Shown here: piece after piece, positions 37,103 to 55,600 of the stretch
Position numbering within the stretch: position 1 is the first letter of the stretch
Layout of the letters: each line of letters begins with the position of its first letter
NCBI GenBank assembly: GCA_000310025.1
Contig: FN649742.1
Span: 3,044,431 to 3,108,430, forward strand
Source: Ectocarpus siliculosus
Taxonomy: Eukaryota; Sar; Phaeophyceae; Ectocarpales; Ectocarpaceae
Direction: 5' to 3'
DNA length: 64,000 nucleotides
Notes under the pieces: model-generated
The model's database searches: none
What the model was told of the DNA's origin: nothing
The model's input: only the letters and a program-made list of their open reading frames with translations
Position numbers and translations under genes: made by a program

Positions 37103-39597
37103 AGCGGGAACTCTGTTGTTCTTTTAACACTCCACGATGGCTCGCTGATCACGATTCCTTCGTTCCAAGGGTCGGTTTCTGTTTTGATGGCCAAGACAAA
37201 GCATTACCTGAATCCCTCTCAAAAGAATGCCAGCCTTTCGTAACCAAGATCCACAACTCGTTGTTTTCTGTTACGCATTTCGCCATTACATCACTGCCGA
37301 CCATCGCTTGCCACTTCGCCTCTTCGCACCAACAGACATGGATGAATGTTGCGGCAAACATCACCGCCCTAGCCCTGCGCACCACCTGAATATAACTGTT
37401 GCGCACCTATTTAAAACACATGGACACAAAATCACCCCTCCACTGGAAGCACGATATAACGACGCCAAAATACGTGCGCGGAGTTTCATCGAGCCTCCGA
37501 AATTTCCTGCCACCCCCCCCCTGTTCATCACTTATCTTGACGCAGTGCCTACTTTCTACATATACGTGCTGCCTATACTTCTCTCCTCGCTCTCTACAAA
37601 GGTCTTCGCTATATATATCGGTATACCAATATATTCTCACTCGTCTGCGTAGCAACAAAAACAGAGGGGGAGGGAAAAGTCCGCCAATAAATGGCAACCT
37701 GTTCGGGAACTCCGCCCTGTCGAGCGGCTGGTCAGTCATGCCGCCAGCAAGAAGTTTTGTGCCCCTTTGTGTTCGCACTCCGCTGTCAAAACTGTCTTCC
37801 TGCCACCACCCAATATCCTAGTCGTTTCGTTATGCAAGAACAAGGAGGGTATGGAGGACAGAAAAGAAACACAACTCCTAAAAGTGAGAGTATTACGTTG
37901 CCTTAACGTGTGCCCTCTCCACCCTCCACCGTATCATCTAATCACCACATTCCGATTATGACACTGGACGTGTAGGCAACGTCGGTTTCCATCCAAAAGG
38001 AAACAATCGGAAAACCTCCACGTGCACACCCTCGCTCCAGGTCTATTTCGTCATCCTGCAGCCAACACTTGTTGACTGCCCCCGACAATTTCCGTACGCC
38101 GCAGACACATTTCCAGGCAACTCGTCTCCCAAGGCATCGGTACAAGCTAGCCCTAGATGCGAGTTCGCACTCAAACATACACACACACTCTCTCGACACG
38201 CCGACAAGCGAGACACACGGTGGCCGTCCACACCCAACCAGAGCCAGTTTCCGCACAAACGCACCGTACACAAACAACGCTATCGCTCTTGTTCCGGAGA
38301 ACAGCAACCCGATTCCGAGATAAGGGCATCTTGAAAGCAACACCCTACAGTCTTCGGCCGCGAACGCAGCGCAACTTTTCCACTTTGGCAGCGTTGGCCA
38401 TCGAACGGCTATGATTGTTCCTCGAAATCGTACTCCGCCAAACACTTGCTGCGCCAGCCAACACGACCAAACGACGTGAGCGTAGCCCAACAAACCACTC
38501 GGCCGGGTGAAGCAAACGCAAGTCCACACCGCGCGTTCATTGTCAATTAATTTTATCTGGTATGTGTCCAGTTCTTTGCTTGTGCGCGGCGGAACTCGTG
38601 TGTCCCATTGACGCTTGGTGCGGCGCAACCCTTCAACACGGCGTGCCTAAATACGAACAGGGAAAATCGAGAAGCGACTCTTGTTTTCAAACAATGCACA
38701 CCAGCATGCACCCGTCAAAAGCAATGGTCTGTGAGACGCTTCCTGCCGTCTATGACGCAAGGAGAAGAGATTGGAGGAAAAGAGAGACCCATAAACAATG
38801 AAGAACCACCATCTATCGGCGTTCTTGTTCTAGCGGAGATCGACGAGCAATCCGCGCTTGTGCCCACGGTATGTCGGGGCCATCAAGTGGTGCTCTTCAC
38901 CAATTGGCAGGCAGGAGGACCAGAGAGACAAGAGACGACCCAAAGTCTCGCCACGCGCTCCTGACGAGTCATCCGAACGAATGTTACTTGGACAACCCGG
39001 GCGCTATCTGAAGCTATCGATGGTCGGAGCAATGTCGGCCGCGCTCTTGCCCCCCATTTCCAAGCCGGACATGACGTCGAAGAAAACCTAACAGAACGGA
39101 CGGAACCAAACCAAAAGCAGCGGAGCATTTCATCATCTGCTTGGCCTCGAGGATTTCACCGGTCGGTTGTGACACATGGACACCCTCATACACACACCTA
39201 ATATGGGGCACCAGTCGTTCGTCGAAAAAACCGAGCTTGCAGGCGTCAAACTATGGTCAGAGGAGCCTTGACAACATCGAGTCGGCATTGTAATGCTAGC
39301 TATCATAGCACTGTCCCAGCTCTTACGGGAAAAAATGGGCTTCAGATCCTGAGCCAATTTTGAGACGCGATACATCTGAGGACAGACATCGCAATAGACA
39401 ATCTAAACTCCATGCAGGAGCGCAAGCCAGCACGGTGGAACCTGCTTTTAGCCGAAAACGTAAAACAGAGTCAAAACTGCTGTGGAAATGTGATTGGAAC
39501 GCCCCGCTCCTTCCTCTCCCTAACAAAAAACAGTTGTCATTTCCAACTGTTGGGGAAGCTCGCTTCACAGTAAGAACGAAGAGATACCAATGATCAT

Positions 39598-42500
39598 TCA
39601 ACAACACAGGAGAGCGGCAAACGGGCACACCCTCCCACCGCCTCTCATCGCGTCCAGCAGGCCACCGCACACGCAAACCTCAACCACGCCCACCTTCAAG
39701 TCGTCCGGGGCGACGTTGGCGAGTCGCTTGAGAGAGTCGTACAGGAAGAACTGCAGCGCGATGTTGAGGGCCGACTTGGCCGCCCTCGGGAGAGCCCCCT
39801 TGTAGAACGCCGCCGCCCCACCCTCGTTGTACACCTGTTTGACCGTTTCGATGATGCCGACGCTACCTCCCTCCTTGTCGCTGACTTCGACGAAGACGGT
39901 GTCCGACGGCTGAGAGACCAACGACGCCGCCACTCCAGCTTCACAAAGGCAAAAAGAAGAAGAAAAAAAAAGCGGCAAAAAGAAAAAACGAGAAAAAAAG
40001 AGAGGATCAAAAAACATACAACACCAGCAGAAAACAGCAGAAAACCTACATATGTATGCATACGTACGCCGAATAGGAGTACTTCAACATTGCAGAGTCA
40101 CGGAGTGTGCGTCGTCGACCATCGCACGAACGAAGGCCACCAACAAAAACGAGGAGACCTCAACCCCCACCGGCATCTACCCCGCACACACGGGCCACGC
40201 CGCGCAAGGCCGCAACTCACCGACCATGCCGCTGATGAGGGAGATCGCCAGAGACGCCGCCACGGACTCGTTCGCCTGCGGGAAGACGTTGTAGGCCAGC
40301 TTGGAGAAGGCATCGAACACGGCGAACTTGGCCATCATGAAGGGGATCTCGGCCAGCAGCAAGACCGGGACACCTGCACGATGAAAGCGCGCACGTTCGT
40401 GACACATGGCGCGTTCTACGAGGTTTAAACATAAAGACGCGTGCGGCGCAAAAGAGGGCAAAGATTTTTCCCCCCGTGCGGAAGATGCGCCTCGAGTACG
40501 TACGCTTTCATTGCGCCTGCCAAGGGGATATGTTGATTGATCTGAAAAAGGTAACACGGGTCGCAAGCCGTGGCGAACTCGGTCGTCGCGAACGGGAGCT
40601 TGGCCAGCGGCTGCACCTCCACCGACTACAATAACAACAGCAACACCTGGGCAGACTGCTATCAAGTGCACAGCGACGAAAGAACCAAGCGCACTCGCGA
40701 AAAAAAAACATCAGGCGGCTGTCCCAGACCACGACACAACCACAAGGTTTGGCACTTCGGACCTCCTTCTTCTGCGAAGCGCAGGCTAGCTCGAGGCCTT
40801 GTTTGCGTGCATGTGCAAGGATTTGCCCACTCTATGTACACGTTTACCATCAATTTGCAACCAATACGCCCTGGGGGCGGAAAGGGGGGTAATAACGCCC
40901 TTTACCTAGTAACATCGCATATGAAATCGAATCAATGGACACATGGGGCGTTTTTTTTCGTCCGACGCACCTGCAATGAGGTCTCCAGCGCGGCCCGTGG
41001 ACACCATCTCCGACATCGCACCCGCCAGGGTCTTGGGGAAGTTGGGAACCGTGACGGTCTTGATGCGGAGGGTCTCGAACGGGGTGACGGCTGTGGCCGC
41101 GAAGCAGGCGGATACGGCGCTGCCAATAGCAACAACAATAACAACAACAACAACAACAACAAAAGCAGCAACAGCAACAGCAACCACAGGAGCGGGGGCA
41201 TCAACACACCAAACACGATAAACAACAACCACGCAACAAAACAGACAGCAGCAGCAAGAGAGTGGTTTCACGCAGGGACCAAACCAAGCATTCGCTCAGT
41301 GATGTTCAGCTGGAATGGACGCGCAACATCCGCTGGCCCTCGTTCCCCCCGCCCGCGCACACCCCGACATACCTCCCCCCCCTTGCGCTTCACCCCCGCC
41401 CTGCATACACACCTTGCGCCCAGTAGAATTGGAATGGGGTACAGCGCCGCCAAGTCCGGGCCCGCCAGCTCAACGAAGCGCCGCTTGAGGAACTCCGTGA
41501 GCCCGAAAGAAAAGCCCCCGTAAAATACGTACCCCACGATCGTCGCCCCCGTCCCGAGCAAGAAAGCCTCGACGCCCTGGATTAACATAGGAAACCCCGA
41601 GTAAATTGAAACGATGGAACGTGACGACATACCAACAGTGGTAGCAAAGCGGCGGCGGCGGCGGCGGCGGCGGAGTAGTGGATGCATGAAAACGGAAAGG
41701 TAGAAAGCGAGCAACAGCACGGCCGCCGTCGTAGCAGCAACAACAGCAGCAGTGGTAGGTGCATGGGAACGAAGAAGGGTGAGCGTTATTCAACTATCGT
41801 TTTGTAACACCCCAGCATGTACGACGACCTTGTTGGAGTAAAAACACAAACGTAAATCGTCTCAAAAAGGATCGAAGCACGTGGCGCTAGCCCGTAGTTG
41901 CAGCACTTCGCACATCACGCGCTTCGAGCAGAATCGTGATCGGAGACAGGGAAGGTCATGCCCGAACGGCCCTCCTCTCCCCCAACCACGTAGCTACAGT
42001 AGCTCGCGGATGGTGGGCCGAGCGTGGGTACGCTCGCTGGGAAACGAGATGTAGCAAACAAACTCACACCCGACCCTCTGCGTCTACCCTGACACATTTC
42101 CCAGCGACTAACGCGCACGTCGTACGATCTGACCAGGCACTAAATGCATGCACACAAGTACTCGCATTCACACACAACGCGCTATCGCAGCACCCTCCCT
42201 TTCCCCGTCGCCCCCCTTCCCGGTGCCCCCTTAGAACCTTCATCCAGACACTGTTGCATACTAACCTCAGTCTCTCTTTTTATATGCATAAATGTGTATC
42301 TCTCTCTCAATCCCCCCCCCCTAGCCTGGTCCGGTGAGAACCCGGCGTGCTCCGTCCCGGCTTTGTAGGGATGCGAGGTCAATGGTCTAACGACTACGGC
42401 ATGCACGACTATGAGTACCCCCCCCCCCCCCCTCTCTCCTGTATCTCTCCCTCCCATTCTCTTCCTCTACCGCTCTCTTGAGAGCGAGATGCCAGACACA

Positions 42501-45500
42501 CGCGCAAACGCACGAAGGCGTGCACGCAACACACGCACCTCCTCCTTCACGAGCGTCCTGAACGTGGACATGGTGTCCGGGTACCTCTTGGGTTCCGACT
42601 GCATCCTCGTCTTCACCACGTCGATCGGGATCAGGAAGGCGTGCGCGGTGGACCCACAGGCGGCCCCGCACGCGGCGAAGCGCAGGAACACCGAGGCGTC
42701 CAGCGAGCGTTCCTTCTCCACCGGGTATCTGAGGTGGGAAATAAAGAAATTTCCAGGAAATTTTCGGTGGTCCCGTAAGAGTTAGGTCGCGGCTGTTGGT
42801 GGCGTGGTCGGGATGTTTGGTAGCTTGGCATGCGTGTACATGTCTGCCGCTGTGGCCGTCGTTGTTGGTCGAGTGGAGACACTGCTTTTGCCTTGACGAC
42901 ATACAATACACCTGTGACCCCTGTGTGTTTCTTTACTCTGTGCGGTGGAGTGGGATGGGGGAGTGTAATGTGCGTTCCCGTCTGTGCGTCCCCCTTGCAA
43001 CGAAACCCTATCGTGTGCCGGGGTAGGGGAGCACCGCAGCGCCCGCCGGCAGTTAGTTCTTTGTCAAAGAGGTCTTTTATCAAAAAGGTGGCTAAGACTG
43101 TTTTCGAAGGAACCGTACGTTCACAAGCCGAGGCTCGTGTTCGTCCCAGGCATAACAGCAGGTGTGATTTCAAGAGGCGAGCAAACAATACTATCAGCAA
43201 CAGCAAAATCAGCAACAGGCAACGTACCGGTTGGTTTCATCTAGAGAATGCGCCAATACAGCAGTAGCTTTGATATGGCAAGGAGAACCCGAGGCTGTTG
43301 CGCCAAAGTCACACGAGCGTTTCTCAACAAAACAAAACAGGCACCCCGCCTCGTGTGCGATTCATCCCGAAATTGAAGACATAGCTTCCGATTGGTGTTC
43401 AGGCAACTGGTTCCGCCTTGAACAGGACATGATGCGCCCGCCGAGCTCGAGGCTTTCCGTCGCACGTTCTTCTCTCCAATGGTGCAACGCTTCATTTTCG
43501 TTGTTTTACATTCTTGCTCCCTGGCACTCTTACCTTGTACGGGGCCCATCGAGGAAGGAGAAATACCTAGCCAGCTTTTGGCTGGGGTAAACCTGACGCG
43601 AGGTACGGGATAAAAAGGAGGCATGAAAATCAGCCAGCGTTGGGGGTGGGATTGGGGTTAGCTTAACAGCTGCGTAGATAACCAATGTACCGCAATGGAA
43701 ATCCTGGAAGGGGTTGGGGGACGACGGCAGCATAACGAGACGACGGCAACAAGAAATGGGCAAATCAAAAGTTGTCGCCGGTGTCGTCAAAAAAAAAAAA
43801 AAACGCAGCAGCAGCTCCTGGCTTTGTTTGCGCTGCTCTCACACCTGAAACTCGGAATTGTCGAAGTAGACGCAGTAGTTGGGGTCCGCCACGTCGATGG
43901 GGGAGAGGTAGAACTTGGCCAGGCAGGGGTCCAGCATGGGCACGAGGTTGTCCGGGAGCAGCTCGGTCACCTCCCTCCGCAGCTGCTGCGGGGGCAGCCA
44001 CGACCTCAAGACCTCCTTCTCCGGAGGCGGCGAGAGCACCGCTTGGGCCTCCGCGCTAGCCCCGGGGACAGCGTATTCTACCTGCGATAGAGATGAGAGG
44101 CACAAGAAGAGAGAAAGAGGGGGGGGGGGGGGGGGCAGAGAGGGGGGAAACAGGGACAAAACGTTCGAGGGAGAGGGCTATAGAGAAAATTTCCTCGACC
44201 CAAAACCTATGCCTCAACTAAAGCCAGCAAACCTACGAGCTGGTTTATATGAAACAAAACTACCGACAAAACTGGATTTTTCTTTATTGCGTTTTCGTCA
44301 AACGCAGCCTGTGCTAGATCGCGCGTATTTCGGGCACCACGTTGAGGAGGGCGGGAAAGTGGGTTCAAGGAACGAACAGGATCCCTCTGGAGTGCGGCAC
44401 ATGAGATCACAGCACTGCCATCAAGGGGGGTGATGCAAGACGAACCAAAAGCAGCAGCAGAACCAGCCCACAGCTGGCTGCCGGCGATGACGTTTCCCAA
44501 GCTCAACAGCTCACACAGCCGATGACGTGTTTTTCTCCATAAAGAGCCCCGCGAACCTCATCTATATAAAGTCTTTAAAAAAAGGGCGCTACACGGAGGC
44601 ACGGTGGCATCAGAGTCTCACCCTCGGCGGCGGCGGGTCTATGGTAACCTTGGCCGGAAGAGGGCTCGCGTACCCGCTGCCCTTGTGCACGACCCGCACC
44701 TCCGACACCTGCCGCGGAAGAGCGAAAGGAAAGACAAGAGGAAAAAACAAGGCCAAGAGACAAACACATTACGCACGAAATGGGAAAGGGGTCGCGGGGA
44801 GGAGGCGACTGCGGGTCGAGGAACCATTTCTCCCCCTGTTGTTGCCTTCGACCAAAAACATGGAGACCCCCTTCACGTGAAGGGTACAATCTGAAGATCC
44901 CCTTCACAACGGGTTTACAATCTCCCCAGCGCCTGTCTGTCCAGGACTATTGATTATCTCTTTGTCACAAACAAAAACGTGATATTATCACTCGGCGTCT
45001 TCCACCGCTCCTTTGCGATGTCAAATGACACCGTATGATTCGTGCGTCGCTGACTTGTCGTGGTATATACCTCCATGTCCATGACAGCTACCGCGGCGGC
45101 GCAATTCATCCTCCCTTCGACGAAGCCGACCGCGTTGCCACCCGACTCAGCTTCGGGCTGGTCTATCATCACCCTCACATCGTCGTCCTAAGGTCGGCGC
45201 GCAACAGAAACGGTTAGGGTTTGCACGCAAGGCACAAGCGGAGTTACTGTCCGTCTTTGGATTTTTATGCCCGCACCTACAACATGGCATGATACATTTT
45301 CGTTTCATCTGCGTAGGGCTAGCTCAATACACCAGCAATTGCAGAAATCCACTGCTTATTCGGTGCTGCAGTTGGTGATGCTTTCTTCGCATTCTAATAT
45401 CTGGGTACCCCATTGCGTTTCTTCGACCCACTCTCTCGGCTCACACACGAAAATCAACCTCTGCACTGTGTAGGGAATGCTTGGCACAACATGTCGTGTA

Positions 45501-46137
45501 TCAACACGGCCCCGATTTCGCCTTCAGAGTTCCCTCAAACGCACGGCACACGACGACGTGCACCATCACCACCAACGCCCCTCGGGTCGAGTGTCGACGA
45601 GTGGGGTGCCAATGAATCCCACAAAGATAGTATCCAGGTGCAGTATCACTATCTACCATCTCGGTTGTGTCACAGAGTAGAGAGGGTACATTCGTCGCGC
45701 GGGGCGGACTTGAATATACACGCCACGTACGCGCCGGAACTATCGAGCTCACCTCGGAGTAGCCACTCCCTCCGTTCGTCACCACGATGCCAACGACCTT
45801 GCCCCCCTTGAGCGCCGCCACCGCAGTCGCAGTCACACCGTCCGGGTTCCTGTCGGCATGTGCCAAGGCCAGCGCGAACGGAAAATACACACTCGTAAGG
45901 TGCACAAACACCTCGCGCAGGGTCCGTGACACCGGCCGACAAGCTCGGGTATTGTGCGATCCCTGTTGGAGACACGAGAACGCTCTCGCCTCTCCTCGGC
46001 CTGTTGTGCTTAATCTCTGCCACATTCTAACTTTCGCTTCCGGATCTGCACGTAGATGCGTTGTCGTTCATCAGTCAACGGCGAACACAGCTATTTACCT
46101 ACACTCGTCTTTGTCTTTGCATATCACTGTCTGCCTG

Positions 46138-46193
<56 letters not shown>

Positions 46194-49100
46194 TTGCTCC
46201 CTCTTTCTGCCCTCTCTCACTCCCCTCCCTCCTTCTGTCGAGCAAGATGTCACGACGTTTAAAACTTCTACAGGTCAACAGTACTGCCAGCGCCAGCACC
46301 AATCACCGCCACCTCCCCGATACCCCCACCCCGGGTTTAAACGTCACGTGAAAACCTATGCACAGCACCCCCACCACAAAAACAGAAAAGAACCAAGCAC
46401 GCTGCCCCCGGCCCTGGGGTAACTCCCGAGCAGTCAACCACCCCAAACCCCACTGACGAACAACCACCACGACAGGAGGGCCGCACGCCGTCAAAACGTT
46501 CCACCTCCCCCGCGTTCGTAGCTCTCTTCCTAACCTTGGGGGCGATATCGTCACCGTCGGGGCCGTCTGGTACCCTTTCCCCGGCGACCGTAACGCCACC
46601 CTGAAGACGCTGCCCGACCGCCTCAGCGTCGCGGTCGCCCTCGCCGTGTCTGTCAGGTAGGGCGGCGCCTCGATCTTCACGGCCGGAGGGTGCCCCGCCT
46701 CGTACCCCCGGCCCCCGTTGGTCACTTTATAGCTGACCGCGCGTACGAAAGGGGAGGAGGAGGAAGAAGAAGAAGAAGAAGAAGGTCGAGCAGGTGGAGA
46801 GGATTCAGGTTTCCCGGTGCGGATCGTGCGGCAGGCGGATATGCGAGATGGCATGGGTTTAGGTTTATAGGGGGTGAACCGCAACCGTGTGGGGGGAGGG
46901 AGTAGGAGTGGCAAGTTTGTCGACAGCACGCCGTGTTTTGGGGGATGCCGTGGTCTACGCTGTGAGCCAACAGGATACTCTTTCCGCACCACATCGATCC
47001 ATACACTCCTCTGCCGTTTGCTTGGAATGCTACGCGTATGTGGTACGACGGATGTATAATTCTATCGCCTGCGCCAAAGGCTCGACGCCCTTCCCGGGCT
47101 GTTTAAAAAAAATGAGAAGTGAGAACATCACGCATGCACGAACGGACAGACCCACACCGTTTTTGTTCACGACTGCGCCTCCCCTTTCCCTCCTATGCCA
47201 CACACCTCCCCCGTTCCCTTCAAACCGTGTCTCCTCTCGTGGCGGTCACCCATTTAGAACGCCTGAAAATGGAAACCTCGCCGTAGGCATCGCGCCGACC
47301 CCGGTCCTTACCACTTTTGATGCTCTACGGGCTACCGCAAAAATTATCAGCTCGTTCCCGTGACACCAATAAAACGCCGACTTTTCAAGGCATGTTGTTC
47401 CGATTTTTTGTTCGGCCCCGCATTTAGCCCTTCTCAGCCCCTCGCCCCCCCTGCTTGCACTCCCGTTCCTTAGGCTTGCTTACCCCTTCTCCCCGAGCGT
47501 ACCGCACCAACAAAACTACCTCAAGATGGTCCCTCTCTCCCATGACCTACCTCAAGATGGAAGAGTTGTCCGTCTCCCCCATGAGGGCCTTGATGTTCTC
47601 CACCGGCTGGTCCGAGTCTAGCAGCGCAAACAGTAGCGCGATCTGCCGCTTCCCCGCGGTCTCCTCCCCGAACTCCTCCACCAGCAGCTTGAACAGCTTC
47701 TTGACCCCGGACTTGCCCCCGTACTTGCGCAGGCCGAAGTTCACGCTCGCCTAGTGGACAGGCGATCTCGTGGTTTCGGTTCCGTTGTTTCGTTCAGCGT
47801 GTGCGTGTTCGTGTGGCATGGTTGAGCCGGGGGGTCACAGGAGTGGTAGGGGGGGGGGTACTCTTATGTATTGCATGCCTAAGCGGTTAGACCATTGACC
47901 ACGCGTCCTCGAGAGGACGAAGCACTCATAGCCGTGCATGCCGTGGTCGTTAGACTATTGATCTCACATTCCTAGGGGAGACAAAAAACTTTCTTTTCCA
48001 ACCATACACCGAAGATTCATCTGAGTCCATGCACCCTTTCACCCAACTTCGCACGGCTCTTCCTCGGTGCACGCACTCATTTGTTACCACCGTCCCATTC
48101 TTCATTGGCTAGGAGAAGGTTGGCAAAAAACGCCGACAAACGAGCGCCTCGTTGACATAGCAGGAATCGTCGCTCTCGACCGATGTATCAACGTAAAACA
48201 CACAACCCACGCGAGCACGGTGCTCGTTGATGGCCACCTGTAGCTAGTACCGCACACACAAACAAGCGTTTCACTCCTCGTCCTTTTCCTTTCTTGGCCA
48301 ATCGGCAAGCGCGGTCCACGTAGCAAGGGCAGACATGGGTCACACCTACACGTCGAAACACCAAACCAGAAACATGCTGGGGGCTCATGGCTCCAGTCCC
48401 CCTCTCCCTAGCAGGGGACCCGCGGAGGACAATGCCACGCTCTCACGTTGTGGCTTTGTTGCCGCTACTGACTTTCAATTCACAGTCTCGGCCAGGCTGG
48501 TGGACACAAAGCAAGCAACACGCACAAGCACGCCCGCCAAGCCGTGCAACGAAGCCTTGACACTAAGAGACCGTTTCCATCCGAAGCGAATCGAATAGCC
48601 GAAGCGAATAGTCGAACCTTCCAAGCGAACCGAACCTTCGAATCGAACCGAAGAGAACTACGATTTTTACAACAATGCCACCGTCGGCTCGCAGGGTGCA
48701 CCAACCCCGCACCTCAAACTTTGCGAAGCCGATCTGCTGGTCCGCGATGGCCAGGCTAAATTCCTCCTCGTTCAGGGTCCCGTCGCCATCCAGATCGGAT
48801 GCCTTGAACACAGCCGCCGCCCCCTGCTCCACCAGTTTCTTGGCGAAGTCCTGCGCGCTCGCCTGGGAGACGGAAGTCTGCTGATTCCTCCACCAGTGCG
48901 CGCTCACGCTAAAAGGGTTGGGGGGGGGTAGCGAGGTGGAAGGTGACAGGGGGGGGCAATGTGTGTGGGCGAAGAGGCAAGGGAGGGGAGAAGGGGCATC
49001 CAAAGAAGGGGAACGCCTATCTGCTCCTGCTCCTCGTAGCTACTATGCTTTCACGAACATATCGCGGCAGGTAAGACGGCAAGTCGAACGCATGTTGCCT

Positions 49101-51130
49101 CCCGAGCGAAGCGTCGGTTGAGCTTCGAAGCGGGCCCGCACGCACACCAAACAAGCAACACATGACACGCCTGATTTGCAGTTCGCAATAGATCGCGCCT
49201 AAGCAGCATCTTCCTCTCGCGCGGCACAACAGCAGTAGCAGCGACGACATCGAGACCAGACAGAAAGAACAGCTCGTATTCCAATATGCACCTCCATGTG
49301 CTCCTTTGAAGGCGCAAGCGCAAAGATCCGCTGGACCAGTTCAACAAACGCACAATTGAAACCCTGCTGTGGCAACCTCCTCCTTCCTCTGTTGGTTGCT
49401 AATTCTTCGCCCGCAGGCAAACACAAGCGGTAGAACAACAGCAAAACTTGAGAGCCCGCTGCTGTGTCAGCCTCATCCGTCGTTACCCTCCTCCCGCGGA
49501 CAAAACACACGGTGCGCGCACCTGTCGTAGTTCACCAGGAATCGCGCGAGGTAGGCCACGAACCGCGGGGAGTACGTCTCCTGAGCGACCCCGGCGCTCT
49601 TCTCGAAGGTGGTGACCGACGTCCAGGTCATGTCTATGCTCTCCTCGAACGCGGAAAACGCCTTCTTCGGTGCCTGCAGAGGGCCAGCCGGCACGGCACG
49701 TTGGTGTGTCAAAGCCACCCTCCATCAAAACAGAAAATAACGTGGAAGTACGTATCTCCTCGCCATCACGGGAACGGAACGACCGCTGTTTTGCTTCTTA
49801 CCACGCAACACCGGTGTAGCGACATGGCGACGCAAGCTTGCGCTGTGTACAGCGGCGACGAAAACGGCCGACAGTGTACCCAAACGTTGCAGAACATTCG
49901 GCGATGGGAGGAGAACACCAAGAGGCCGCAAGAGTGAACGGCAGCACGGGTTGTACAACACCTTTCTACACGCGGCGTCCCGTGTAAGTTGAGTCGAAAC
50001 AGCTTCAATACTACTTCTCGGTGGTCGTCTACAACTGTCGCTGGGTCAAGGGCCGATAATTCAGGTAGCAGCGCAGCCTGACAAGGCGTTATGAGCAGAT
50101 GCCACGGGGGGGTAGAGTTGGTGGGGGAATCGAGGAAACTGCCTATTTAGCCGGGCGTCCGGTAGACTCCAAAACGCGCGTTTTTTCGACCAACTCATCT
50201 CCCGGGCCCGGACCTGCATACGGCTGTGAGTGGTAGGGTAGACTCTTTGTTTGCAACTCTTTTACGGACAAGCTCGATTACTTCCGCATCTGACTGGCCT
50301 CTACACCGAACGGCTTACCCATGGGAGGCACGGGCGCGCTGGTAGGTGCGGGCACCATACCTGCGGGCCATTCCCCCCCAAAGGTAAGCCGTTCGGTGCA
50401 GAGGCCAATCAGATGATCAAGTATGGTGTTCGTTAAAAGAGTTGCAGGAATTTCGTTGCCCACTACTGAAATGCAGGGCGGGGCCCGGGAGCCGGCGTCA
50501 TTAAGCCCTCGCCGCTGCCAAAAGGACTTCAAAAGCACCCGTTCGAGGCCGGTCTCAGGAGTGGCACTCTCCTCTGGCAATTCTACATTCATACCGTCGA
50601 AACGTGTTTCTCGAACTCCAGTCAACAGAGGCATCAAATTGCCTCGAATAATTAGAAAACACTGGAGGTGTACACATGCAATCACCGAAGGACTACGTAG
50701 ACGTTCAAGATAATCCCAGTCGAACGGATGTTGAAGTCTTGTTTTGACAGCGGGGAAATTACGTCACAGCACTGGCCAACAGCAACCAAAGCTCCTAAAA
50801 TAGCGCATCAACCAACATACAACATACCGCTGAGCACCAAGTTACTGCAAGTTGCGGGAGGGGAGTAACCAGCAGTGAATTTCCTGCTTGGTGTTGAGCT
50901 ACAGCAGTACAGCACATGCTTCCGAAATTACGATGCCAGCAACGTGCGTGCACGCTTTCTACTGAAAGACTGCTATCGTTTGGCTCCCTCGTCCGCTGTA
51001 CGCGTGTGCCCCAGAATCTTCAATTGATGCGCAACAGCCAGCAATTTGTACATGAAGCGCCATGTTTTGCAAGCTGTGAGAGAGACGACAGAAACAGAGT
51101 GAGTTGCATGCAGATGCGCAACACCGTGCT

Positions 51131-51171
<41 letters not shown>

Positions 51172-51820
51172 GCGCCCCCGCAGCTGTCTCTTGTCTTCAA
51201 AGGCAGTCCTTAATTACGGCGGTGTGTCGCCACATGTCATGCCGAGCAGGCAACCCGCCGGTTCTGTACCATCTCCGTCGCCATCGACGGGACGTCTACA
51301 AGTAACTCACCAGCGAGAGTGCCAGGACGGCTGCAGCCGAGCCTGCCGCGGTCTGCACAAAAGATGCTCGGGACAGGCCTCCGACGCGAGCCTCCTCTGC
51401 AATCTCGACACGGTTCTCCTTTGGCTCTCGCAGCTGCTGCAGTTGCTGTTGCTGTTGATCCTCATCGTCAACCGCTGCTGCCATCCTGCTGCCCAAAATT
51501 CCGCTCGGCCGTCGACGAAACCGACCGCGTTTTCTGTACAGGCTGCGGTCCTCGGCGTCCCTCGAGACGTGGAGGTGGTGGCGTTTTACATACTGGTGCT
51601 GAGCGGCGCGCCGGTCGTTTGCTCTTCCGGGCGCAACGCCACCGATGCTATGTCCACTCGCAACAAAAGCGGCAGTAGTAGCTCGTGCGGCACGTGCTGA
51701 CTTCGTGTTTGGTCCAGCATCAGCACGACGGCAAGTGGTTGCTTGGACATCCCCGATCAACACCAGTAGAGAAAGAAGAAACGCCCCACATTTACTGCTG
51801 TGATTTCCGCAGTGGTCCAT
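39598..51820 (-). CDS. Leader-EF-hand-GxGY-repeat-SLC25 carrier fusion, ~942 aa, 15 exons
   Basis: Exons, every join in phase: 51820-51311, 49673-49522, 48887-48713, 47750-47551, 46732-46535, 45849-45753, 45187-45071, 44708-44622, 44081-43845, 43592-43534, 42728-42539, 41576-41413, 41119-40971, 40373-40221, 39938-39598. The N-terminus (CGAFLLSLLVLIGDVQA) is an ER signal; near residues 140-170 ASFVQTAAGSAAAVLALSL is a second hydrophobic, Tat-like or anchor segment, as in complex-plastid leaders. Next come a helical module (FSAFEESIDMTW, SPRFVAYLARFLVNYD), an EF-hand loop DLDGDGTLNEEE, and a helical module with KKLFKLLVEEFGEE. Four GxGY motifs follow (NGGRGY, SPGKGY, NGGSGY, HKGSGY), each before PxVxI-like strands. 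The C-terminal 330 residues are a three-repeat carrier: IPIDVVKTRMQ, TPFETLRIKTV and QPSDTVFVEV signatures. The third lacks the basic residue, as in phosphate carriers, and IPFMMAKF resembles their IPYTMxKF. Substrate and location are inferred. The C-terminus is read to a TGA at 39598; a donor after DDLK could instead add an exon. Confidence 0.88.
42326..42438 (+). repeat. Truncated family A element, opposite orientation
   Basis: Reads CCTGGTCCGGTGAGAACCC through GTCAATGGTCTAACGACTAC and GACTATGAGTAC to a run of about 15 C. This is the 3' third of the 370-bp element in plus sense. It lies in the carrier-fusion intron between 42539 and 41576, between a short C-run and (CT)n sequence. Confidence 0.85.
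46136..46193. repeat. (CT)n microsatellite
   Basis: A CT-rich run with interspersed CTGTCT units, in a carrier-fusion intron. A similar (CT)n run is at 51135-51168. Confidence 0.85.
47849..47980 (-). repeat. Chimeric interspersed repeat (family B joined to family A)
   Basis: After a G-run, a family B tail (TGCATGCCTAAGCGGTTAGA through TCCTCGAGAGGACGAAGCA) runs straight into a family A tail (CTCATAGCCGTGCATGCCGT through CATTCCTA). The two related tails are in the same orientation. It lies in a carrier-fusion intron, about 100 bp upstream (in transcript sense) of the exon starting at 47750. Confidence 0.75.
50253..50445. repeat. Imperfect inverted repeat, ~70-bp arms
   Basis: The left arm 50253-50323 (GCAACTCTTTTACG through ACACCGAACGGCTTACC) pairs with the right arm 50378-50445 (GGTAAGCCGTTCGGTGCAGAG through CGTTAAAAGAGTTGC), with a spacer of about 54 bp. 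The outer and inner ends match best. It lies in the large first intron of the carrier-fusion gene. Confidence 0.85.
51135..51168. repeat. (CT)n microsatellite
   Basis: About 17 uninterrupted CT units in the first intron of the carrier-fusion gene, 140 bp downstream of its first exon in transcript sense. Confidence 0.9.
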
Positions 51821-52617
51821 GTCGATCTCGCTTGCCACACTCTGGTGAGCGGTGCGTGTATCTGTCCCGTGGCCTGCTCGACTGCATGGCTGCTCATGAT
51901 GATGCCGCTGGCCGGGCTCCGCGGAACGAACTTGAGGTACCCAAGGGTACCCAAGGGGCTCCGTGGCTGCATATGAGAGGAAAAACGCGCGCAATTAGCA
52001 ACGGTCACATTGTGCGCGAATCGGACAGGTATACGCCAAAGCTTGCACGGGCCGCCACCTGAGCAAGGGCGAGGGAAGGGCGTGCCATGTTTTCGTTTGG
52101 CCAACAAGAGGCGTTGGCGAAAACAGGAGGAGCGAATAAAAAGAAGCCGTCGAGGCGAATCTCTCTCGCAGATCGATCGCGCAATGACGAGAACGCCATG
52201 CCTCCCTTGACGCCGAGAGGACACCGGGGGCCCATGGGGAAGGGGCCACTTCAGAATCAGCAGGCTTTCCTCCAGGTGTGTGCGTAGAAACCGAACGTTG
52301 GTGTGAAGGGGACGTCTGTTGGGGACGGTCGCGAAAGTAGCGAATTAACCCTTACGGCACAACAATGGTTGGCAAGAATTTATTATCAGAGGTATCCGCC
52401 GGGTGAACCTCGGGTTGCCGGAAGCGATTGCCGCTATTTGCTGCTGCTGCTGCTGCTGCCTGCATCATAGCCTAGCACTTAGGATCGCTCTGCAAAGAAT
52501 AATGCTTCCCATAGGCGTGGGGGATGTTGGTAGCACTGCGTCCACGCAATCAATCCCAGACACATGTATCTCCCCTTTTTCGCCCGATTCTTCTGCGTTC
52601 ATGAAAACCAGACGGCG
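51821..52617. promoter_or_regulatory. Divergent promoter region between two large genes
   Basis: About 0.8 kb separates the start codons of the minus-strand carrier fusion (51820) and the plus-strand coiled-coil gene (52618, or 52564 if the upstream in-frame ATG is used). It should hold both promoters. A CTG run near 52440-52460 is the only repeat. No core motif is clear. Confidence 0.45.
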
Positions 52618-55600
52618 ATGCCTGCCGCCCCAGCGGCTTGCCCTGCGTCTACCTCTCCTTCTCGGCAAGGGGGCAGCGGCGGTGGCGGGCGAGGTGGAGG
52701 TGGAGGGTCCACCGCGACCCAGATGGTCAACCAAAACTTCGAGCTCAAACGCCGGCAGCAGGAGCTGGAGAGCATGGTTCAGAGCTCCGAGGCAGCGACT
52801 AGCCAGCTGCAGGAACGGAATAGCCAGCTGCAGGAGCAGAACCGTCAGCTGCGGGAACAGAACACCAGGGCGCGAGCCGAGCTGGAGGAGTCAAACGCAC
52901 GGGCAGACAGAGCTAGCGCGGAGGCAGAAGGATTGCGTGGCGAGGCAAAATCCAAGAGCACGGAGATAGCGGGCCTGCGTCGCGACGCCAAGATGGCGAG
53001 CACGGAGACGGCGAGCTTACGGCACGATGCCAAGACTGCCAGCGCGGAGATCGCGAGCCTGAAGCGCAAGGCCGAGACCGCGAAGGCGGAGTCAGCGAGC
53101 TTGCGGCGTGAGGCGACGACCGCAGTCGAAGAGGCCGCTAGCGCCCTCGCGCAGACCCGCGCCGAGGCCGAGGCGGCCACGGCGAGAGCCGAAGCGGCCG
53201 AGAAGCTCGGCGTGCAGCAGAGGGAGGCCGTCGCCCAAGCCGAAGATGCCGCTCGCAAGGCAACCAAAGCCCTCAAGGCAGAGGCCGCCAAGGCTGCCAA
53301 GGCTGCTGCGGCCGCCAAGGCTGCTACCCAGGCCGCTGCCACCGCAAAAGCCACCGCTGCTGCTGCTAATCAAGCGGCTGCAGCCGCCAGGGCTTCCGCC
53401 GCTGCTGACGTTGCCGCCGCCGCCTCCGCCGCTGCCGCCGCGGCTGCGCAACAAGCCGAGAGCGAAAACTCACTCCGCCGGCGGTCGGACGTGCTGTCCC
53501 TTGCGGCGAGCCTAGAGGCCCTCGCTGCAGGGGGCTCTGCCGCTCGGACGACGGACACCTCTTCCCAGCCGACCACGGGAAAGAAGAGGGGCCGGGGAAG
53601 CGCAACACCGGGAATCGGACCCCGAACAACCGCCGTGGAGCCAACGGACGAGGCTACGGCGCCGGCTGGAGCACAATGCCGCCGCGGAGGCGGCACGACC
53701 GGCGGCGTCGGAGGCTATGTGGAGCTGCCGGAGCTGACTAAAGGGTTCTGCGGGTTCCTGGCGGCCTACACGGCGCAAGGCCTGCCTCTGGACGCGCTGG
53801 TCGGGCTCATACAGACCACCCCTTCCGCGGGCGGGCGAGGAGGGGTGGATAACAGCGACGGAGTCGAGAGGGGCGATATGCCGCCGCCCCCGCGCGTTAC
53901 GGCCACCGAGAGGGCGAAGAAAAAATCGCGAGAGGCAACGGCTGTGAAGCTGGGAAAACCCACCGCCTTGGTCTTGCCTCCCCCTGCTGCCGCGACCGCC
54001 ACCCCTGCTCCTGCCCCCGATGGGGATTCACTATCCGCCGCCCCTGCCGATGCTGCAGCCGCTATGACGACCCCTCCCGAGTCGGTGGTGCCTACCGCAC
54101 GACCTACCACCACCCGCAGAGAGATGCTTAACGCTCGGCGTGCGGAGAAGGAGAGGGAAGCCAGGGAGAAGGAACGCATCCAGGAAGAGAAGGAGAGAGA
54201 GAGGGCGGAGCGCCAACGCGAGGCTAGGAAGAAGCGCAAGCAGGAGGCCGCTCTTCAGAAGGCCGCCGAAGCCGCTGCCCGTCAGCAGGCCGACGAGGCT
54301 AGGAAGAAGGCGGCCGAGACGGAAGCGGCTACCGCAGCGGCAGCAGTAGCGGCAGCCGCAGCAGCAACGGCACCGGCAGCGGTGTTGTCGTCACCTTCGG
54401 TGCCATCTCTATCGCAGGAGCAGGAGCAGGAGCAACGGGGGGAAACGAAACCGCTGAGAGCGCACAACACCAAGAGCAAGCGGGCCAAACCAGTCAAGCA
54501 AGCGCCGCTGCCACAGCAGCATGCGGGGCAACCGCACGGGCAGAAGCGGGCCGTGGGCGGTACTGAAGCAAGAAATAGGAAGCACTCCGTTAACGTCTCC
54601 TCCTCCTCTTCCGATGCCGCTCCCGCGGATAAGGCAGAACTCCCGAACGCAGCGTCGGTACATGCAGTGGCGGCAGCGGCGGCGACGACAGACCTTGACG
54701 AGGTGGGGGGAGCTGTCGTCGAAGAGGTACCCATGCCCGCGGGAGACATTGACGACGGATTTTTCTGCGCCGATGTAGGCGGTGTGGGCGGCAGCAACTC
54801 GGTCGGGCTTATCGTAGGCGGTGGCGGCGGCAGTGGCGGCGGCGACGGGTATGGCATGGTCGGGGCTTGGTCGCACCAGGCGGACGGCTCGATCGCGGCG
54901 GTTGGAAGCGGCAGCGGCGCGGCGTTGGACTCCGGTCCCGGCGAGAAAAAAAAGAGGGGCAAGGGCAGGTCGCGCAAGCCTGAAGCCGTCGTGGAGCCGT
55001 TGAACATGGGGGCACGGAGCGTCGAGGGCGGGGAGAGTGGCGACGAGGGGAGTGGCAAGGAATCGAAGAAGAAAAAGAGGAGGCGATCGATGAGGTGAGT
55101 GTTTCTTCCCCGTAGGAAGTGCTGATAGCGTGGGTGAGTAAAGAGCGCCGAGGGCAACAAACAATGATTTTTTCGTTGGTCCCTAATATCCTGCCTGTAT
55201 TCTTTCTGTACCGTCGCGCATATCCTGGTTGTCCTGTATTGTAGTTGCAGTTCTCCTCTTGCAATAGTTACGAACCATCTCCCCCTATCAGCCTTTTTGT
55301 CCTATGTCGAACTGTCCTTTGCGTGCCCCTAGGAGCATGGCCATCGGTAGTCACGTACCACCCCTTTTCTGGCGTGTTGTGTTGACCCGATCCGTACGTT
55401 GCCACCCTCTCGCTGGAATCTTGGCTCGCCCCGCTGGGTAGGCTGGTGAAGGCCCCGGTCAAATTCGGTGACGAAGAACCCGGAGCCGGCGGTCCCCTGA
55501 GCCCGGAGCCAAAGCTAGACCAGAGCAAGGGCCTAGCACCAAAGCTGGAACCAACACTTGCGGGCACCGCTGCGAGCGGGCAAGGCTCGGAAAGTTCCGG

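Follow-up and report, generated by a model that had tools for sequence, protein, structure and literature searches.

What protein is encoded on the minus strand between positions 51820 and 39004 of the window (the whole 64,000-nucleotide stretch, C17:3044431-3108430 of genome G000, which was searched as 189 Mb in 492 contigs), and does the SLC25-type carrier at its end form one polypeptide with the long region that precedes it? Reconstruction of the splice chain gave 16 exons with GT-AG borders at 15/15 introns, zero phase errors and a product of 945 residues. The gene appears to be real, and it is most likely one fused gene. The explanation favoured here, that of a multidomain plastid carrier set by calcium and altered in its substrate, is taken in its entirety to be slightly better than an even bet.

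Exon coordinates are given below in the direction of reading on the minus strand. The preliminary description had proposed a phase-clean frame of 15 exons and about 942 residues ending at 39598. A phase-consistent chain was recovered, but with 16 exons and 945 residues, and position 39598 was found to read into the last intron. The model ending there was rejected; the frame splices instead to exon 16 (39087-39004, the corrected gene end), which carries the C-terminal tail VFFDVMSG..., the stop codon and homology to the end of a paralog (DDLKVFFDVMS in the window, DDLRVFLDVVA in the paralog). Two exons named earlier, 44081-43845 and 42728-42539, had exact borders, and between them lies a 59-base exon (43592-43534) that the phase demands. 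An alternative exon near 47098-47034 was dropped after inspection by eye; it had no phase-consistent donor, and a homologous frame at another locus spans the join between exons 4 and 5. The GC content at third codon positions (GC3) was 0.77-0.94 in 14/16 exons, 0.63 in exon 10 and 0.56 in exon 1. Because GC3 is high in 14/15 of the downstream exons and 9/15 joins are spanned by a homologous frame elsewhere in G000, the exon chain is considered to be beyond chance.

The homologous frames come in part from two sister loci. The paralog C26 (locus L024) has a hydrophobic segment, the region termed here the N-domain and a carrier, without GxGY motifs and without an intact EF-hand; in one-sequence BLAST comparisons its carrier was identical to that of the window at 124/312 positions (E 9e-66) and its N-domain at 50/162 (E 2e-12). 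The order hydrophobic segment, N-domain, linker, carrier is common to both genes. A third family member, C41 (G000:C41:44941-48222, L046), has the N-domain and GxGY repeats, with no EF-hand seen; downstream of its repeats at least 5 kb consist of N, so that a carrier cannot be assessed there. The N-domain (FVAYLARFL..NYD ... QPV..IK.L) was thus met at three loci of G000. The architecture, called unusual in the preliminary description, is accordingly not a one-off, having sister genes in the same genome. Among the papers listed by literature searches confined to open-licence papers, none was seen to report it. Some results weigh against the favoured explanation. Pieces of the N-domain scored weakly genome-wide (E 0.005 and 0.017 at C26; 2.3e-5, 0.05 and 0.13 at C41), and in the G000 search the C26 N-domain matched the window (9e-4, 0.012) and missed C41. 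Outside G000 no relatives were confirmed among viral contigs (carrier and N-domain alignments) or genome contigs (two alignments) in prokaryotic and viral collections; this absence says little, because those collections hold prokaryotes and viruses and no eukaryote genomes as such.

Support for a join was scored where a homologous frame elsewhere in G000 crossed it without a stop at that point. Joins 1-2 and 15-16 were spanned by C26, the latter match stopping at C26's own stop codon; joins 2-3, 4-5 and 5-6 were spanned by C41; and joins 11-12, 12-13, 13-14 and 14-15 were spanned by other carriers, the last three also by C26, whose matching frame at join 11-12 starts inside intron sequence. 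The positions of paralog introns, compared by eye, were close but not identical and were not used as evidence. No spanning homolog was found in G000 for joins 3-4, 6-7, 7-8, 8-9, 9-10 and 10-11. It counts against a single gene that three of these (8-9, 9-10 and 10-11) are the joins tying the N-terminal half to the carrier; a match to locus L025 over joins 9-10 and 10-11 was left uncounted, as it passes through a stop in the intron. Together with the large introns, and with C41 bearing N-domain and GxGY repeats without a carrier match (within the limit set by its downstream N), this would suit two adjacent genes, one for an N-domain/GxGY protein and one for a carrier with its own start. That arrangement is nevertheless improbable. 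The N-domain stands upstream of the carrier on the same strand and in phase at two distant loci, no Met occurs from the acceptor of exon 11 up to helix 1, and the linker is shared: exon 9 (44081-43845) encodes LLPDNLVPMLD..., which aligns with LLPEELRPRYD of C26, exon 10 (43592-43534) continues the linker and keeps the phase between its neighbours, and exon 11 (42728-42539) begins with the end of a linker around KERSL that C26 also has. It is this aligned linker, with the common order, strand and phase at two loci, that makes a single gene joining the two halves very probable. The whole gene would then be read as one transcript.

The carrier itself is encoded by exons 11 to 16. Pfam Mito_carr matched on three stretches (E 1.5e-41), bearing out the complete three-repeat carrier reported earlier, and the signatures PIDVVK, PFETLR and PSDTVF place it in the SLC25 family. 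By splice chain, Pfam, motif columns and paralog alignment, helix 1 and the first signature fall in exon 11, helix 2 (GYVFYGGFSF) and the start of repeat 2 in exon 12 (41576-41413), the second signature in exon 13 (41119-40971), helix 4 with AEIPFMMAKF and the start of repeat 3 in exon 14 (40373-40221), and the third signature with helix 6 (LQFFLYDSLK) in exon 15 (39938-39694). A tree of seven rows, all from G000, separated the window carrier, C26, L025 and L029 (the last of which we take, from its motifs, to be MIR1-like) from three other carriers with support 98/96; two of these three stood on long branches, and in the alignment L029 was cut short, L025 and L024 were spliced by hand and one L025 insert was left out. 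The fork joining the window carrier and C26 had support 91/97, below the support mark of the tree tool, and the other two inner forks were not resolved. L029 was 36% identical to the window carrier over 243 residues (E 5e-41 in a seven-sequence set). Phosphate-carrier ancestry, which this small tree supports, is considered very likely. Locus L028, presumably a SAMC-like carrier, was 27% identical (E 6e-12) and grouped away from the window carrier in the tree. A PDB sequence search with the carrier returned 11 distinct sequences at E<=1, namely UCP1, UCP2, ADP/ATP carriers, a GTP/GDP carrier and MTCH2-UCP1 chimeras, with no phosphate carrier among them.

Two of these loci may be described in their own right. 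L025 (G000:C3:5743223-5745196) resembles phosphate carriers but is divergent, and a low-complexity insert precedes its last helices. L028 (G000:C1:3081039-3081806) is an SLC25 gene resembling S-adenosylmethionine (SAM) carriers, in one long frame with the hydrophobic leader MRVLAGCVAMVLLALPTSNA, and is possibly another plastid-targeted carrier.

Whether the window carrier still moves phosphate was judged from its binding site. Its columns were assigned by spacing, not structure, a point that weakens the comparison. In helix 2, L029 and L025 have Gln and Lys, the window has Tyr and Ser, and C26 has Tyr and Val. At contact point II, in helix 4, L025 and L029 have Lys-Gln (read by eye as KQIPY in L029), C26 has Arg-Gln, and in the window Ala-Glu precedes IPF, in keeping with the replacement of Arg-Gln noted earlier. 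The Lys of helix 4 and, by alignment, the Gln of helix 6 are kept. The third signature lacks its basic residue, as had been described; the position is Phe in the window, against the Val or Leu that phosphate carriers are stated to have there instead of Arg/Lys (PMC9104175). Contact point II is described as discriminating substrate classes (PMC7611774), with G[IVLM] given for nucleotide, R[QHNT] for carboxylate and R[DE] for amino-acid carriers (PMC7226361), and Ala-Glu matches none of them. Because Tyr, Ser and Ala-Glu stand in place of the phosphate-type residues (Gln and Lys of helix 2, Lys-Gln of contact point II), the window carrier was not classed as a functional phosphate carrier; and because its binding site departs from that of phosphate carriers, its substrate is probably another solute, in place of phosphate or in addition to it. 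For a changed substrate as such the sequence evidence leaves the scales about level.

A plastid phosphate importer, moving phosphate with a proton and giving net supply where triose-phosphate translocators only exchange, would agree with the clade, with the kept residues of helices 4 and 6 and with a third signature free of Arg/Lys. The account of diatom plastids in PMC7283521 reports no net phosphate import by triose-phosphate translocators, but it puts forward two other candidates, PtPho4 and PtNapi1. Neither the window carrier nor C26 retains the Gln and Lys of helix 2, and contact point II reads Ala-Glu where L029 has Lys-Gln and C26 Arg-Gln, which makes C26 the better fit for such a role. 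The importer is thus regarded as a rather unlikely identity for the window gene, and a carrier shifted away from phosphate is preferred.

In which membrane would the carrier lie? Exon 1 (51820-51311) opens with a predicted start ATG and encodes a hydrophobic stretch at residues 12-30, a basic, Gln-rich region and a second hydrophobic segment at 152-170 (hydropathy), as expected from the signal-type leader and second segment reported earlier. In ochrophytes a bipartite plastid leader consists of an endoplasmic reticulum (ER) signal followed by a transit peptide, with Phe or another aromatic residue or Leu after the cleavage site. The window leader has the hydrophobic stretch and the basic region, but Thr instead of Phe at the likely +1 position (VQA/TT), and exon 1 has no codon bias (GC3 0.56, other exons 0.63-0.94), as is also true of the C26 leader; both points speak against the assignment. 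Because exon 1 lacks the GC3 bias, the model is at its weakest in the leader and its start codon. A plastid location is nonetheless predicted with moderate confidence.

The leader MDHCGNHSSKCGAFLLSLLVLIGDVQA, without Phe at +1, would also suit an endomembrane carrier with a plain ER signal, retained in the ER or vacuole. This is considered improbable, as a long basic transit-like region follows the leader and as plastids are known to have both carriers with an EF-hand and EF-hand fusions. The open leader of C26, which has no Met close before it, also shows ATPPAF after the hydrophobic stretch, presumably a plastid-type site. Within the plastid, the second hydrophobic segment could instead be a lumen-transfer signal of a thylakoid carrier, with the EF-hand and GxGY block in the lumen. 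An Ala-rich hydrophobic segment does stand about 30-45 residues ahead of the N-domain in the window gene (hydropathy) and in C26 (by eye), and plants have a thylakoid carrier of the family, TAAC (PMC5948301). However, the label of a twin-arginine translocation (Tat) signal formerly attached to this segment does not hold; the segment reads GGLSRASFVQ, RR pairs occur in the first 180 residues only at 31, 70 and 102, no twin arginine precedes 152-170, and the window copy has no clear AxA site. TAAC homologues are, moreover, reported in PMC5948301 as missing from brown algae and diatoms. A thylakoid position is accordingly rated as doubtful, and a carrier of the plastid-bounding membranes as the better reading.

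The N-domain is encoded by exon 2 (49673-49522), where it begins with ETYSPRFVAYLARFLVNYD and is conserved in C26 and C41, exon 3 (48908-48713) and exon 4 (47750-47551), whose homology to C26 and C41 covers the second half of the domain. The EF-hand lies in exon 3: DLDGDGTLNEEE, at residues 259-270, is a canonical 12-residue loop with acidic residues at 1, 3, 5 and 12. One canonical loop thus stands from the EF-hand claimed previously, although the Pfam EF-hand_1 match (E 0.0019) scored 18.1 bits against a cut-off of 25.4. The strength of a calcium role is further reduced by the loop being single in the window gene, by the mere remnant DG....EEF in C26 (MAFFT) and by the lack of a loop in C41; either the window copy gained the loop by insertion, or C26 and C41 lost it. 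Apart from this match and a chance-level one to PGA_cap (E 0.024), Pfam gave nothing for the N-domain. PHROGs gave no match, and NCBIfam gave three sub-cut-off matches for the window N-domain and none for that of C26. Calcium control of the carrier through the predicted EF-hand is therefore put forward tentatively, at somewhat less than an even chance.

Between the N-domain and the linker lies the GxGY block (residues about 350-540), whose four motifs were present as first described, at residues 360, 404, 446 and 500. Repeats 1 and 2 are encoded by exon 5 (46732-46535), repeat 3 by exon 6 (45849-45753), the repeat between motifs 3 and 4 by exon 7 (45187-45071; GC3 0.77) and repeat 4 by exon 8 (44708-44622). 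When compared with phage records by tblastn, the block matched 343/50,697 at E<=0.01, all below 60% identity; 336 of the 343 are named Synechococcus, Cyanophage or Prochlorococcus, and among 20 records listed the identity was 30-32% over 84-98% of the block. A shuffled block matched 0/50,697 phage records, and the block itself matched 0/72,556 plasmids. In PHROGs it matched 20 families at E<=1; a tail-fibre family scored best (1.1e-14), and several of the others are baseplate wedge or virion families. One C41 exon had matches to 15 PHROG families at E<=1, led by a virion family at 4.5e-7; a second exon of that locus, which contains one GxGY, had none. In a search of G000 with the block, C41 scored no better than E 0.014, and two further sites scored 0.16 and 0.23. 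No solved structure was found for it by PDB sequence search, and NCBIfam gave no match. An AlphaFold model of exon 5 alone was all-beta and unreliable, with a mean predicted local distance difference test (pLDDT) score of 53. The cyanophage-like nature of these repeats, as read from the sequence comparisons, is a point missed by the earlier reading. The source may equally be a cyanobacterium or a phage, because phrog_5342 also matches one of 14 control genomes, that of Synechococcus elongatus; the resemblance may also have arisen by convergence of a simple repeat.

The calcium-regulated plastid carrier of the preliminary description remains the best hypothesis, and the tree adds phosphate-carrier ancestry to it; its Tat label has failed, and its EF-hand is single, below the cut-off and degenerate or missing in the paralogs. 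As now proposed, the product of the gene, 945 residues long, would be a carrier of several domains in the plastid membrane of an ochrophyte, probably a brown alga. Its route to a four-membrane plastid would be set by an ER-type leader and the transit-like region after it. Segment 152-170 would cross the membrane once, so that the N-domain and both termini of the carrier itself lie on one side. The N-domain with its one canonical EF-hand loop and the phage-like beta-repeat block would form an ectodomain before a six-helix carrier that by sequence belongs to the phosphate clade. The carrier would use the alternating access of SLC25 proteins with a binding site shifted from that of phosphate carriers, helix 2 having Tyr for Gln and Ser for Lys, and contact point II having Ala-Glu for Lys/Arg-Gln. 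Its activity would be governed by calcium bound at the EF-hand, and the repeats may serve as a spacer or docking module. The fullest version, in which calcium acts through one EF-hand to gate a plastid carrier whose site has moved off phosphate, and a cyanophage-type beta-repeat gained from a cyanobacterium or its phage organises that carrier, is speculative and on present evidence unlikely.

The exchange of solutes and phosphate across the four membranes of red-lineage secondary plastids is only partly known. The window gene is a candidate for how algal plastids move solutes, and it and C26 are further candidates for this exchange, C26 with a phosphate-type contact point and the window gene without one. 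How a phage-like repeat came to lie in a eukaryotic membrane protein is a different question, one of origin.

Three other frames were observed near or opposite the gene. An Ala-rich, coiled-coil-like stop-to-stop frame of 854 codons (52534-55098, plus strand) begins on the opposite strand, some 0.7 kb away from exon 1; the GC content is 63-65% across 52-58 kb. Long open frames at 40555-41523 and 39574-40428 (plus strand) lie antisense to carrier exons and are probably just the shadow of GC3-rich codons.

Several known systems resemble the predicted protein in part. Arabidopsis SAMTL (At2g35800) is described as a plastid-envelope SLC25 carrier with a single EF-hand (PMC4844381, PMC6471148), the two sources disagreeing on the outer or inner envelope; the window gene would share that layout and its presumed plastid place. 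SAMTL is SAM-type by name, whereas the window carrier groups with phosphate carriers, a distinction drawn from its description and from the comparison with L028, and the passages on SAMTL in these two papers mention no GxGY block. The APC/SCaMC ATP-Mg/Pi carriers likewise have an EF-hand-bearing N-terminal domain before the carrier, but with four EF-hands and an amphipathic switch helix (PMC7611780, PMC7611774), where the window gene has one loop and a carrier of another clade. Brown-algal SjTic20-14 combines a leader, an EF-hand domain and plastid inner-membrane helices in the same order (PMC6720183; also PMC5462543). It differs in its unrelated membrane domain, in having eight calcium-binding residues over two stretches and in an EF-hand domain shown to lie in the stroma (PMC6720183). 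Because SAMTL and ochrophyte EF-hand-Tic20 fusions are already known, the window gene is less of a surprise. G000 itself gave 10 Tic20 matches. Eight are on C6, of which six lie within 26 kb on both strands (G000:C6:2821411-2847609) and two near 3.83 Mb; the remaining two are on C49. They resemble the 14 tandem Tic20 genes reported from the brown alga Saccharina japonica (PMC6720183), and taken with the genome size and the introns they would point to a brown alga.

The diatom plastid-transporter atlas of PMC9546453 gives one predicted plastid mitochondrial-carrier protein, J46742, which could be related to the window gene. The GxGY repeats are the likeness to cyanophage virion structural and baseplate wedge proteins; the window block differs from these in being short, with four repeats, and in lying inside a eukaryotic membrane protein. 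With the mitochondrial phosphate carrier (SLC25A3/MIR1) the window carrier shares its grouping with L029, a third signature without a basic residue and the Lys of helix 4; it is set apart by an N-terminal extension of about 600 residues with a leader-like N-terminus, by the loss of Gln and Lys from helix 2 and by Ala-Glu instead of Lys/Arg-Gln at contact point II.

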